Shown here one piece after another: positions 35,133-48,248 of a stretch of 64,000 nucleotides of DNA. Position numbers and translations under genes: made by a program. The first letter of the stretch is position 1. Each line of letters opens with the position of its first letter. Source of the stretch: Chloroflexota bacterium (GTDB lineage Bacteria; Chloroflexota; Dormibacteria; Dormibacterales; Dormibacteraceae). The notes under the pieces were generated by a model that saw only the letters and a list, made by a program, of their open reading frames with translations, made no database searches and was not told the origin of the DNA. The DNA lies in contig VBIU01000021.1 in assembly GCA_005880945.1 (NCBI GenBank), positions 1 to 64,000 on the forward strand, read 5' to 3'.

Positions 35133-35555
35133 ATGTATCGGACCCTGGAGTACCTGCGCGGGATCTCCGACGACGACGTGCGGCGCCTGCGATCGCGCGG
35201 CATTCAGCACACCAACCAGCTCCTGCACCGGACTTCGCTCGCCATCGATCGCGAGAGGCTTTCGAAGAGGACCGGCATCAGTCCCGAGCGCCTGCTCGAG
35301 TTCGCGCACCAGTGCACGCTGCTCGAGGTTTCGGGGATGGAGCGGCACCTGCCGGTCATCCGCCGTCTCGGCATCGAGTCGATGAAGGATCTGCGCGCCC
35401 AGGATGCAGCGGAGCTGCACGCAAAGCTGGCCGATGCGATCGGACTTGCGGGATCACCCAGCCAATCCGACGTTCAGTACTGGATCAGCCAGGCAACCGC
35501 CCTCGACATCGTCGAGGAACCTGAGGAAACGGCCGCCGTCCCGGTAATCAGCTAA
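35133..35555 (+). CDS. DUF4332-like helix-hairpin-helix protein
   Basis: 140 aa. Two tandem helix-hairpin-helix-like units are visible: LEYLRGISDDDVRRLRSRGIQHTNQLL with TGISPERLLEFAHQC, and LLEVSGMERHLPVIRRLGIESMKDL with DVQYWISQA. This matches the DUF4332 pattern, whose biochemical role is unknown; HhH units usually contact DNA backbone non-specifically. ATG 35133 has no Shine-Dalgarno, but TATCCT ends 6 nt upstream, so a leaderless message is likely. The structured repeat starts 15 nt after its stop. Confidence 0.8.
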   Translation: MYRTLEYLRGISDDDVRRLRSRGIQHTNQLLHRTSLAIDRERLSKRTGISPERLLEFAHQCTLLEVSGMERHLPVIRRLGIESMKDLRAQDAAELHAKLADAIGLAGSPSQSDVQYWISQATALDIVEEPEETAAVPVIS

Positions 35556-35570
35556 ACGATTCGCCCGAAG

Positions 35571-35743
35571 GCCAGCGTTGCAGGGTTGGCCGGGGTCCCC
35601 CCGGCCATGACTTTGTCCATCTCAACCCCCAGCGTCGCGAGGAGAAACTCTTCTAAAACAATCCCATCGATATACCGGAATGGGAGTAGCCGCGCGCGAA
35701 GCGCCCGGCGATGAGGGAAAACCATCCGGGTTTTCCCTTATAC
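35571..35743. repeat. Structured 173-bp repeat, copy A (unknown element)
   Basis: Begins GCCAGCGTTGCAGGGTTGG and ends CCCTTATAC. It contains three hairpins: GGCCGGGG/CCCCGGCC (35588-35606), GCCG/CGGC (35689-35692 with 35706-35709) around the 13-nt core CGCGCGAAGCGCC, and AGGGAAAACC/GGTTTTCCCT (35714-35738). A second copy in the same orientation lies at 46315-46489. Four stem pairs differ between copies with both partners changed. It fills the gap between the stop codons of two convergent genes. Either strand could be transcribed. No homology to a known riboswitch or ncRNA was recognised. Confidence 0.75.
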
Positions 35744-35745
35744 GT

Positions 35746-36798
35746 CTAAACGAATACGCCCCGGCGGCGCTTCAGGTTCTGGTAGACGCCGGCCTGGATC
35801 GTGTCCCGGACCTCGTCAGCGATTGCCATCACCAGGTTGCGATCCTCAGCCGCTTCTGGCGGATACGTCTCGACGTGGACCGGAGGGTGGAACTGGATCC
35901 GCCACTTGCTCGGCAGAGGGATCAGACCGAGCGGGCCCAGCCACGGCCAGAACGGCGTCACAGGCAGGTACGGCAGACCGAAAGTGCGAGCCACAGGCGC
36001 CAGGTCCGCGATCATCGGGTAGATCTCCTCAGAGCCGACCACCGAGATGGGGATGATCGGAGCGCCGGCGCGGATCGCGGTCGCGACGAAGCCGCCTCGA
36101 CCGAATCGGCGCAGCCGGTAGCGTTCCTTGAAAGGCTTGCCTGTTCCTTTGACGCCCTCCGGAAAGACGAGGACGAGCTCGTCGCGCTCGAGGAGCCGCC
36201 GCGTGTCGTCGGGGTGACCGACGGTCTGGCCGGTGCGACGCAGGAACCAGCTGATCATGGGCATGCCCATGAAGAGGCTCGCGACAAGCGCACGCACATG
36301 GCGGGGCTGGGAGTGCTCTACGAACATCGCCGTCTTGATCATCGTCCCGTCCCACGGCAGAACGCCGGCGTGGTTGGAGACGAGGAGCCCACGCCCGGTG
36401 GCGGGGACGTGCGCGATGCCGGTGGTCTCGACTCGCCAGTAGTCGCGATACAGCACTTTGAAGACGCCGAGGAACGATTCCGTCCATTGCGGGTCAAACC
36501 CGAATTCGTCGACTGCGTAGTCGGCTCCGCGGCGAGAGAGCTCGCGCTGCTGGTACGCGAACTGAACGAATTCCATCACCCGGTTCAGGTCGATGACCTC
36601 CCGGCCCGTCATCTGGCGCAAACGCGTCGAGAGATCGACCAGCCCCTGCATCGCGTACGTGGGCGCATTCCGCTGGAGACGCCGGATCACCCTGGGCAAC
36701 CGTGCGCCGGGAGGACGCGGGGCCACGATCTCGGCTTTCCGGCTGCGGCGCCGAAGCTGCTTCGGCTCGATGTGGACCTCGACGGGCTCTGCGCTCAC
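35746..36798 (-). CDS. Lysophospholipid acyltransferase family protein (PlsC-like)
   Basis: 350 aa. It should transfer an acyl chain to a lysophospholipid or similar alcohol at the membrane. The acceptor-site motif reads SNHAGVLPWDGTM near residue 140, a wider His-Asp spacing than the classic HX4D, as in a branch of larger LPLATs. FPEGVKGTGKPF near 217 is the second conserved block, and PIIPISVVGSEEIYP the third. There is no clear transmembrane helix, but amphipathic segments are present. Its ATG overlaps the stop of the upstream epimerase (ATGA), so the two act as an operon, perhaps making a modified lipid. Confidence 0.87.
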   Translation of the reverse strand: MSAEPVEVHIEPKQLRRRSRKAEIVAPRPPGARLPRVIRRLQRNAPTYAMQGLVDLSTRLRQMTGREVIDLNRVMEFVQFAYQQRELSRRGADYAVDEFGFDPQWTESFLGVFKVLYRDYWRVETTGIAHVPATGRGLLVSNHAGVLPWDGTMIKTAMFVEHSQPRHVRALVASLFMGMPMISWFLRRTGQTVGHPDDTRRLLERDELVLVFPEGVKGTGKPFKERYRLRRFGRGGFVATAIRAGAPIIPISVVGSEEIYPMIADLAPVARTFGLPYLPVTPFWPWLGPLGLIPLPSKWRIQFHPPVHVETYPPEAAEDRNLVMAIADEVRDTIQAGVYQNLKRRRGVFV

Positions 36799-46014: not shown

Positions 46015-46275
46015 GTGCCGATTTATGAGTACCGGTGCGAGGAGTGCGGTAAGCGCTCTTCGGCGCTGCTCCCGAGGTTCTCTTCGCCCGACCCGCTCTG
46101 CCCGCATTGCGGCAAGGCGGGGCTGCGCCGGTTGGTCTCGACCTTCGCGACAGTGCAGTCGGGTGACGACGGCGGAGGCGATGACTTCGGGGGCGGCGAC
46201 GACTTCGGCGGGGATGACGATTTCAGCGGCGGCGACGACGACTCGGGCGGCGGCTACGGCGACGACGACTTCTAG
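46015..46275 (+). CDS. FmdB-type zinc-ribbon protein with acidic Gly/Asp tail
   Basis: 86 aa. The start PIYEYRCEECGKRSSALLPR is the FmdB family pattern; two CxxC pairs (CEEC near 8, CPHC near 29) form the zinc ribbon. The second half is nearly all Asp and Gly (DDGGGDDFGGGDDFGGDDDF), likely disordered. FmdB-like ribbons are small regulatory or unknown-function proteins. GTG 46015 lacks a Shine-Dalgarno, but CATACT ends 6 nt upstream (leaderless). Repeat copy B begins 39 nt after its stop. Confidence 0.85.
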   Translation: MPIYEYRCEECGKRSSALLPRFSSPDPLCPHCGKAGLRRLVSTFATVQSGDDGGGDDFGGGDDFGGDDDFSGGDDDSGGGYGDDDF

Positions 46276-46314
46276 CTAGCCAAAGCCTCGTCTACGCAAG
46301 CCAGCCTGCACCAA

Positions 46315-46489
46315 GCCAGCGTCGCAGGGTTGGCCGGGGTTTCCCCGGCCAAAACTTTGTTTCGATGCCCTCCAGTCGTCGCAGGGAGAGACTAATCCGT
46401 AGATAAGTCCCATCGATATGCCGGAAAGAGAGCAGGCGCGCGCGAAGCGCCCGCCGATGAGAGGGAACCATTTGGGTTCCCTCTTATAC
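46315..46489. repeat. Structured 175-bp repeat, copy B (unknown element)
   Basis: Same orientation and order of blocks as copy A at 35571: GCCAGCGTCGCAGGGTTGG, hairpin TTGGCCGGGG/CCCCGGCCAA (46330-46352), ACTTTGT, GTCGCAGGGAGAGACT, CCCATCGATATGCCGGAA, hairpin GGCG/CGCC (46435-46438 with 46452-46455) around the same 13-nt core, and terminal hairpin AGAGGGAACC/GGTTCCCTCT (46460-46484). It lies between the stops of the convergent FmdB and HD genes. No T-run follows the last hairpin on either strand. Confidence 0.75.
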
Positions 46490-46505
46490 CTTGCGACGAT
46501 GACTT

Positions 46506-47888
46506 CTAGATAGCCAGTACCTCATTGGCCGCCTTGATCAGCTGAGGGCTGTGAGCGTCGTCGCGGGCGAAGATGCGGAACAGCGCCATGCGCACAGGCA
46601 GGCGCTTGAAGATCTCCAGCACCCGGCTCTGCTGGTACCGGTCCTCCAGAGGCTCATATATAAGGATGTCGGCGGTCTCCGTCATCGGGTTGAAGGCCCG
46701 CGACTCCTGGGCGGCCACATCGACCTCGAACTCGATGCCACGGAGCTTGCCCGGCAACCTCTCCCTCAGCTGGCTTGCGAACTGCTCCCTGGTGACGCTG
46801 AGCGCTCCAGTCGGTATCTCCCTCGCGTCTGTGAGGCCCTGGTAGATGAGCTTCCACTTGAGCTTGCGGGCAACGACGTCGGCCCACGCCTGGCCCAGCT
46901 CCCTTCGCGCCGCGTCCACGTCGCCGGTCGCCCAACGGTCCACCTCCGACAGCAGCGACCACTCCGTCAGTGACTGGTAGCGATCCAGCCGCTCCAGAGG
47001 GTTGCCGCCGAGCACGACCTCCAACGTCGGCCGGAACACCTCCCGAAGCTGCAGATCGATGCGCCTGACCGTGCGGTGGAAGTAGACCTGGTGATAGAGG
47101 TAGAGGCGCGCATTCAAGAACATGTACAGCGCCTCGGTCGCGTGCGCGTGCAGGGTGAGGCCGCGTTCGGAGACAAACGAATAGTGGAGGATGCGCTGTA
47201 CGTCGACCGGCCCGGTGGCGACGCCACATATATAAGAGTCGCGAGGGACGTAGTCCATGTTGTCGGCCGAGTAGGCGCCGACCATTGCGGGCTTGAGGGC
47301 CGCGAGCCACTCAGGCGGTCGGAAACCCACCAGCTCCGCCGATGAGATGAGGTAAGCGACCCACCTCGGGTCGATGAGCTCGCCATGCTCGAAGTCGGCG
47401 CTCGGCGACGCTCCAAGACCGCCGATCACGGGAGCCAGCGGGCCTGTGATCAGGGTCCGCCCGATGACCTCGTGGTCGATCCGCCACGTGTCGAGGTAGT
47501 TCTCATCGAAGAAGTGGCCGAACGGCCCGTGCCCCACGTCATGAAGGAGGCCCGCGATGCGCATCGTCTCCTCCACCAACCCGGCCGAAGGAGTGTCTTT
47601 GCAGCAGGCCTTCAGCGTCGGGTACAGGTGTCGCGCCCACTCACCGGCCAGGTGCATCGCGCCGAGCGCGTGCTGGAAGCGCGAGTGCTCGGCGGTGGCG
47701 AACACCCACCATGCGCTCTGGAGCTGATGGATGCGACGGAGGCGCTGGAGCCACGCGCTGTCGACGAGATCCTGCTCGGCCGCCTGTCCCGGCGCGCCGC
47801 CGGCGCCGCCCTTCGTGATGCGAAGGTATCGATATATGGGATCGCTGGACAGGTTGACGCGTGAGTACTCGAGCGGTACGTCCTTCAC
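46506..47888 (-). CDS. HD-superfamily phosphohydrolase (dGTPase/SAMHD1-like)
   Basis: 460 aa from GTG 47888. The HD metal site is built from SRFQHALGAMHLAGEWARH near residue 70, GLLHDVGHGPFGHFF near 115 and YSADNMDYVPRDS near 215. This order of H...HD...D is the deoxynucleotide triphosphohydrolase-like pattern, so dNTP hydrolysis is the best family-level guess. The C-terminal 150 residues are helical and mixed and lack an obvious second domain. GATAAT ends 6 nt before GTG with no Shine-Dalgarno. A longer frame to 47966 would overlap the divergent DUF309 gene and is not used. Confidence 0.87.
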   Translation of the reverse strand: MKDVPLEYSRVNLSSDPIYRYLRITKGGAGGAPGQAAEQDLVDSAWLQRLRRIHQLQSAWWVFATAEHSRFQHALGAMHLAGEWARHLYPTLKACCKDTPSAGLVEETMRIAGLLHDVGHGPFGHFFDENYLDTWRIDHEVIGRTLITGPLAPVIGGLGASPSADFEHGELIDPRWVAYLISSAELVGFRPPEWLAALKPAMVGAYSADNMDYVPRDSYICGVATGPVDVQRILHYSFVSERGLTLHAHATEALYMFLNARLYLYHQVYFHRTVRRIDLQLREVFRPTLEVVLGGNPLERLDRYQSLTEWSLLSEVDRWATGDVDAARRELGQAWADVVARKLKWKLIYQGLTDAREIPTGALSVTREQFASQLRERLPGKLRGIEFEVDVAAQESRAFNPMTETADILIYEPLEDRYQQSRVLEIFKRLPVRMALFRIFARDDAHSPQLIKAANEVLAI

Positions 47889-47893
47889 CTGCC

Positions 47894-47900
47894 GATTATC
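47894..47900. promoter_or_regulatory. Overlapping divergent -10 boxes (HD hydrolase / DUF309)
   Basis: GATTATC: read on the minus strand GATAAT ends 6 nt before GTG 47888; on the plus strand GATTAT ends 4 nt before ATG 47904. Only 15 bp lie between the two divergent start codons, leaving no room for any ribosome-binding leader on either side. Confidence 0.6.
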
Positions 47901-47903
47901 GCC

Positions 47904-48248
47904 ATGACGACCGGTCTCCAGGAGGGAATCGAACTCTTCAACCGAGGGCTTTACTGGGAGGCTCACGAGGCCTGGGAGGGCGACTGGATGCCAGACCGGA
48001 AAGGGCCTGACTCAGGTTTCTTCAAGGGTTTGATCCAGGTCGCGGCCGGTTGTCTCCACTACTCGCGACGCAACCGCCGCGGAGCAGTCAACAAATGGCG
48101 GAGCGGCGCGGACTACCTCCGTCCTTACCTGCCCGCCCACCGAGGCGTCAAGCTGGCACCCCTTGTGGAGGCGATCGACAGAGACCTCGCCGCGATGGGT
48201 GGGCGTGAATGGCCGGACTTGAAGATGCCGGCCATCAGTCAGGAGTAA
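47904..48248 (+). CDS. DUF309 family protein
   Basis: 114 aa. Matches the DUF309 pattern: EGIELFNRGLYWEAHEAWEGDWM near the start, then DSGFFKGLIQVAAGCLHYSRRNRRGAVNKW. Helical, soluble, conserved His and Glu suggest a metal or catalytic site, but no function is known for the family. It is divergent from the HD hydrolase with 15 bp between start codons, and its last 10 bp overlap the convergent molybdopterin-binding gene. Confidence 0.85.
   Translation: MTTGLQEGIELFNRGLYWEAHEAWEGDWMPDRKGPDSGFFKGLIQVAAGCLHYSRRNRRGAVNKWRSGADYLRPYLPAHRGVKLAPLVEAIDRDLAAMGGREWPDLKMPAISQE

Follow-up and report, generated by a model that had tools for sequence, protein, structure and literature searches.

A likely mobile, non-autonomous structured repeat inserted at gene 3′ ends in one family of Dormibacterota

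Two copies of the same structured element lie between convergent genes 10.7 kb apart, and their presence raises the question of what the element is and how it reached these sites. In the window (the whole stretch of 64,000 nucleotides that was analysed), copy A occupies positions 35571..35742 and copy B positions 46315..46488. Both lie on the plus strand and span positions 1–174 of covariance model R1, which served as the search model for repeat copies (194.9 and 193.5 bits, respectively). The alignment of the two copies runs their whole length, about 174 positions, and their match is far above chance (for one motif, 0 in 100 shuffles). Gene context bears out the statement of the initial annotation that each copy sits between the stop codons of a convergent gene pair. 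According to gene calls and orthologous sites, the stop codon abutting copy A belongs to a minus-strand gene at 35746..36798, acyltransferase-like by eye, and the gene whose 3′ end faces copy B is a minus-strand gene at 46506..47966, HD-domain-like by eye. That annotation was right on the positions and strand of the two copies, but the element is not limited to two: at least 27 were found in the genome of the window (G000). Our preferred reading is that the element is probably a mobile but non-autonomous repeat, structured, intergenic and about 174 bp long, which is confined to one Dormibacterota family and inserts preferentially at gene 3′ ends.

A covariance-model search of the genome and its relatives, which the initial annotation had suggested, proved productive. 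Besides the copies in G000, R1 detected at least 66 in G001, 55 in G020 and 52 in G011, mostly spanning the full model, and it gave matches in 36 of the 42 genomes of one Dormibacterota family and none in the other six; counts per genome are lower bounds, and all genomes compared are MAGs. Judging by these sequences, the repeat is multi-copy, mostly full length, modular and patchy at orthologous sites. Its hosts are one family of uncultured soil bacteria within Dormibacterota: among 101 genomes, BLAST revealed no match outside this family, and in a pattern scan of GTDB contigs 85 of 86 repeat stretches came from MAGs titled Dormibacterota or Chloroflexi. A full copy on contig JANWJC010000121.1 (L239; L-numbers denote repeat loci) belongs to a MAG titled Acidobacteria, reflecting misbinning, misnaming or transfer. 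Carriage of the repeat by phages or plasmids was rejected, as viral, phage and plasmid collections gave no match. The comparison with Rfam proposed for a structured ncRNA returned no matching family, which leaves a known structured ncRNA unsupported. No description of this repeat was found in the literature searched, the coverage of which was partial and does not prove novelty.

The three hairpins described initially were recovered by folding and covariation. In copy A, the 5′ hairpin TGGCCGGGG-TCC-CCCCGGCCA is located at 35587..35607 (helix 1 of the covariation analysis), the middle hairpin GCCG-c-GCGC-GAA-GCGC-c-CGGC, with a C-C mismatch at pair 5 and a GNA triloop, at 35689..35709, and the terminal hairpin of 13 bp, evident from sequence, fold and helix 4 covariation, at 35711..35741. 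Their counterparts in copy B, seen in both sequence and fold, are the 5′ hairpin at 46331..46351, the middle hairpin GGCG-c-GCGC-GAA-GCGC-c-CGCC at 46435..46455 and the 13-bp terminal hairpin at 46457..46487; all six lie on the plus strand. The sequences confirm that the terminal stems differ in three pairs, each changed on both sides, and that the middle stem passes from GCCG/CGGC to GGCG/CGCC around an identical 13-nt core. Terminal inverted repeats are absent from the repeat, as had been noted, and its ends, GCYAGCG and CTCATA, are unrelated. No sigma-70-like promoter was found near copy A. When folded as RNA, copies A and B were more stable than every shuffle (z −4.6 and −5.1), as was copy A when folded as DNA (z −4.2).

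Across 94 distinct sequences, pairing was retained in 97.2% of cells, and double changes occurred in 24 of 29 pairs, with 328 double-changed cells versus 98 in shuffles; the covariation score was 0.319 in register and did not exceed 0.097 when the partner was shifted by any number of columns. These values uphold the initial interpretation of the compensatory changes as a mark of conserved structure, and the alignment strongly supports three real hairpins maintained by compensatory change. Gene conversion between copies could mimic such change at one site, but not family-wide. The stems also remain paired at old shared sites, which could reflect a host function or conversion between copies. A peptide read from the ATG at the start of the minus strand (TATGAG) was rejected because the ATG frame is no more open than the +2 frame; the stem and loop lengths also vary out of frame.

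The pairing pattern is informative about the strand and the nucleic acid that fold. The middle hairpin occurs with dozens of different stems of 8–12 bp; nevertheless, among 161 copies the C-C mismatch at the fifth pair was kept in 136 and the GNA triloop in 150 (GAA 103, GCA 25, GGA 13 and GTA 9), and the stem pairs comprised 1450 Watson-Crick versus 4 G-T pairs. Near-strict Watson-Crick pairing and GNA loops fit a single-stranded DNA hairpin, the form that we consider likelier than an RNA. Since G-T exceeds A-C on the plus strand in both the terminal hairpin (43 versus 14) and the 5′ hairpin (16 versus 6), the plus strand is the folding strand.

Comparison with orthologous regions indicates that the repeat copies are mobile. 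The window is syntenic with contig C7 of G001, where copy A is missing; conversely, two G001 copies are missing from the window, and copy B is common to both but has a rebuilt middle. Filled and empty sites are seen between two species of one genus. Both copies in the window are flanked by direct repeats, which the initial annotation had missed. At site A, the left repeat (35552..35566, plus strand, CTAAACGATTCGCCC) includes the TAA with which the left gene stops, and the right repeat (35746..35761, plus strand, CTAAACGAATACGCCC) has the stop codon of the minus-strand gene at its first base; flank alignment shows that these 15–16 bp begin exactly at that stop codon and are present once at the empty G001 site. 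The 3-nt spacer CGT between copy A and the stop codon (35743..35745, plus strand) is non-native by comparison with the empty site. In G022, too, the stop codon marks the start of the left duplicate at this site, with 14 identical positions in 17 columns.

Duplication is seen most clearly at copy B, where about 31 bp are repeated on both sides (31-column alignment). The left duplicate (46259..46289, plus strand) contains the stop codon of the left gene and the right one (46493..46523, plus strand) that of the minus-strand gene, the latter stretch being single at empty orthologous sites. Where relatives have this gene pair, the two convergent genes touch or overlap by their stop codons; GACGACGACTTCTAGCC is single in eight relatives and double, on both sides of the element, in the window. 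Because the target stands on both sides of the element, both genes retain intact ends. The left gene ends in GGCGACGACGACTTC units, and the duplication alignment extends beyond them.

Direct repeats were then scored for the 235 copies with usable flanks. Strong repeats (score of at least 12) flanked 16 of these copies, compared with 14 of 7012 mismatched flank pairs, and the inverted control gave 0. Insertion duplicates a target, the length of which varies between about 9 bp and upwards of 50 bp. Among the longest duplications, a few may be tandem duplications of the element together with a gene end, for example at L021 and L164. At L021 (G000:C194:22082-22626), two copies stand in tandem, and about 75 nt of 3′-terminal sequence from the upstream gene (elongation factor P-like by eye) has been duplicated along with the repeat; L164 (G011:C4:241986-242586) consists of three tandem copies with a period of about 210 bp. 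Among the points that weigh against reading the repeat as mobile, no mobilising enzyme was found, and a strong duplication is still visible in only about 7% of copies.

Gene context was assessed for 255 copies with a simple codon-usage finder, for which stop positions are exact provided that the frame is correct. In the orientation of the element, 97 sites were convergent, 108 were <<, 32 were >> and 18 were divergent, so that in 205 of the 255 the 3′ end of the repeat faces an opposite-strand stop codon. The orientation bias at same-direction pairs (108 versus 32, p 8e-11) persists when one element per family of abutting genes is counted (61 versus 23, p 4e-5); deduplicated counts were used because orthologous copies are not independent. 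The distance from the 3′ end to the stop codon has a sharp peak at 1, 2, 3 or 4 nt (84 copies), and in another 31 copies the neighbouring gene takes its stop, TGA or TAA, from the end of the element itself. A distance of 1–4 nt was observed in 42 gene clusters versus 11.5 expected under a uniform position within the same gap; for the 5′ end, copies between convergent genes gave no peak of this kind. Bare TAA, TAG or TGA trinucleotides were rejected as the target: away from gene ends they show no enrichment at this spacing, which identifies the gene end rather than a motif as the target. Taken together, the 3′ end of the inserted repeat is strongly biased to a position just past a gene 3′ end, antisense to the gene. 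Targeting of gene ends is a preference, since half of the duplication-bearing copies are not at a stop codon.

Site A illustrates this placement, as copies in three genera (G000, G022 and G011) all lie exactly 3 nt past the stop codon of the same gene. In the same genera, the site is empty in G001, G015, G002, G029, G020 and G024 (it is masked in G025); ancestral presence followed by many losses is possible but less economical. Several copies come after terminator-like T runs. At L283 (G020:C64), a repeat at 2526-2695 lies antisense to a tRNA-Thr gene (2698-2773), with 2 nt between the two 3′ ends. At L003 (G000:C84:32796-32969), the adjoining gene seems to have lost its own stop codon and to run on to an internal TGA of the repeat, which makes it a few residues longer than the orthologue in G001.

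The mechanism that we propose for the mobile repeat starts from these junctions, which show a defined repeat 3′ end with 1–4 additional bases. The hairpins would act as recognition signals for a trans-acting machinery, in single-stranded DNA more likely than in RNA. Insertion would begin with the 3′ end of the repeat being joined or copied onto a 3′-OH at or near the gene end, together with 1–4 extra bases; the gene-sense strand, as DNA or RNA, would provide this 3′-OH, and the minus strand of the repeat would be joined to it or copied onto it. The other strand would be broken some distance away, and fill-in of the stagger would leave a duplication of variable length. Variable target duplications are not typical of known bacterial transposases. 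We raise tentatively, as a somewhat improbable extension, that the repeat represents a new class of bacterial mobile repeats in which the element's own 3′ end is joined to a 3′-OH located at a stop codon or where a tRNA or terminator ends (perhaps the 3′ end of the RNA itself), the repeat is copied and a variable stagger is filled. If true, this would be a SINE-like mode of insertion in bacteria, operating without a recognised transposase or reverse transcriptase. With hundreds of full-length copies, many empty orthologous sites and a sharp target rule, the family makes the mechanism testable. Such repeats also reshape gene ends, as they provide stop codons and can part overlapping convergent genes with neither being broken.

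The search for an enzyme covered several families. The Y1 transposase domain (Y1_Tnp, PF01797) is absent from G000 and from every repeat-bearing genome among the 26 family members searched, and was present among them only in G012, which is repeat-free. Reverse transcriptase (RVT_1, PF00078) is missing from G000, G001, G003, G011 and G020 and from 33 of the 42 family genomes, although a highly divergent enzyme would escape this search. The Y2 domain (PF04986), expected of Helitron/IS91-like elements, was found in only 3 of the 42 genomes, none of them repeat-rich, and Cas1 (PF01867), expected of casposon-like elements, only in G012 and G021 among the family genomes, both repeat-free. One of these two Cas1-bearing genomes has 11 Y1 transposase matches. 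Reverse transcriptase, Y2 and Cas1 were rejected as mobilisers because they are missing from repeat-rich genomes; G000, G001, G011 and G020 lack all three as well as Y1. A TnpB omega-RNA or transposon end was also rejected, as the repeat is absent from the ends of the one TnpB in G000. No autonomous, gene-carrying version was seen in a non-systematic look. Ku is encoded in 39 of the 42 genomes, repeat-free ones included, and is a possible source of both end joining and filler bases.

The most substantial alternative to a mobile repeat is a host-functional 3′-end element or ncRNA, the hairpins of which, lying just past the stop codon, would terminate transcription, shield the 3′ end of the mRNA or keep convergent genes apart, with mobility accounting only for its spread. 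The sharp placement 1–4 nt past stop codons in one orientation, the strong folding, the covariation and an orthologous copy with compensated changes at one site (L002 versus L137:3497) all agree with this, and the position of the copies fits the bidirectional 3′-end element proposed initially. However, presence at orthologous gene ends is irregular, most such ends in relatives lacking the repeat, and six genomes of the family gave no match. Furthermore, one of the three stem types can be swapped whole (L010 versus L158), and the GNA loops and G-T bias indicate the plus strand, which is antisense to the abutting gene. We therefore regard this explanation as improbable, and a purely host-functional ncRNA as unlikely. 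Passive spread, by template switching or end-joining capture at breaks that the hairpins merely provoke, needs no dedicated enzyme and would account for the variable duplications and filler bases, given Ku in most genomes, as well as for tandem duplications with gene ends such as L021. It is nevertheless very unlikely, since it leaves the precise 3′ end, the gene-end target and the conserved mismatch and triloop unexplained, and Ku occurs in repeat-free genomes too.

Still less probable is SINE-like retro-insertion, in which a plus-strand RNA would be copied by a reverse transcriptase from the target 3′-OH. The variable duplications, extra junction bases, fixed 3′ end, junction polarity at stop codons and the copy 2 nt from a tRNA 3′ end would suit it, but the distribution of RVT_1 described above, the rarity of 5′-truncated copies and a middle stem nearly without G-U pairs argue against it. 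Least probable of all, and barely credible, is mobilisation by a Y1 transposase of an element of the IS200/IS605 or REP type. The initial annotation had proposed a non-autonomous IS200/IS605-like element; the filled and empty sites and the duplications support its mobile, non-autonomous part, whereas the IS200/IS605 form is contradicted by the lack of Y1 in the repeat-bearing genomes searched and by the duplications themselves. It is true that subterminal hairpins take the place of inverted repeats here, that the hairpin is imperfect with a mismatch and that the GCAG/GTAG foot at the middle hairpin resembles the REP foot GTAG (PMC2817692).

Among known systems, the pneumococcal BOX, RUP and SPRITE repeats are the closest in distribution and build. 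In Streptococcus pneumoniae, these are small, structured repeats with many intergenic copies, found above all where genes converge. BOX is built of modules and, like RUP, carries terminal inverted repeats linked to IS elements, whereas for SPRITE there is no IS with matching ends and no known mobiliser (PMC3049150). The Dormibacterota repeat shares the small size, the many intergenic copies, the common fold and the patchy presence between genomes that mark BOX-like small interspersed structured repeats. Unlike BOX and RUP, it has no inverted repeats, its duplications are long and variable, and its 3′ end lies 1–4 nt from stop codons. REP/BIME elements with RAYT have a similar imperfect hairpin, short foot (GTAG/GCAG), intergenic location and high copy number; they differ from the present repeat, which is 174 bp long with three different hairpins, has duplications and occurs in genomes without Y1 where checked. 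Y1-type insertion is at odds with target duplications (PMC2817692), and duplications of 15 and about 31 bp flank the copies in the window, besides the family-wide excess. Non-autonomous elements derived from IS200/IS605 resemble the repeat in their hairpin ends, lack of inverted repeats and probable single-stranded fold on one strand, but no conserved flanking tetranucleotide was seen here; membership in the IS200/IS605 or REP groups is unsupported.

The IS1202 family comprises 1.5-kb elements with terminal inverted repeats of 24–26 bp that insert at dif sites in one orientation and at a fixed distance from the target (PMC10132070). Orientation and fixed distance are shared with the Dormibacterota repeat, which differs in its length of about 174 bp, the lack of terminal inverted repeats and its location at gene ends. 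For MITEs of DDE transposons, likewise, terminal inverted repeats are missing and the duplication length is not fixed. The likeness to eukaryotic SINEs concerns the footprint only, i.e., a short, structured, non-autonomous element with variable target duplications; truncated copies are rare, and the reverse transcriptase that a SINE-like element or group II intron would need in its host was not found in the repeat-rich genomes. Group IIC introns favour sites past terminators and attC hairpins. In contrast to them, the repeat matches no intron ribozyme in Rfam.

The repeat has optional modules: the terminal hairpin can be preceded by an insert of 38 nt, and the middle one by a hairpin of about 52 nt. 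The 38-nt module, CATTCAGTAGGGCCCATCCTCAACGCCGCTTTGCGCGC, lies between the middle and terminal hairpins at L004, L006, L013 and L017 and at L131:16324, L141, L142, L146 and L159 (G000 and G001). L020 and L135:3089-3227 carry a common alternative central module (CTCTGGGGTCCCCGCGACGCAGTCGCGGGAGGCAGCCC...) with ordinary 5′ hairpins. In G000 and G001, an extra short hairpin with a GAA triloop and a variable stem (e.g., GGCGGGTC-GAA-GACCCGCC) occurs between the stop codon and the repeat at L005, L008, L016, L132, L133, L137:18736 and L144:4118; at L005 it lies inside the duplicated target, and so may be a fourth module. Finally, L010 (G000:C128:48232-48406) and L017 (G000:C162:70-282) are two contig ends from the same locus, one with and the other without the 38-nt module, and their terminal stems differ by a compensated change (GGAGGG/CCCTCC versus AGAGGG/CCCTCT); they are probably strain variants within one MAG.
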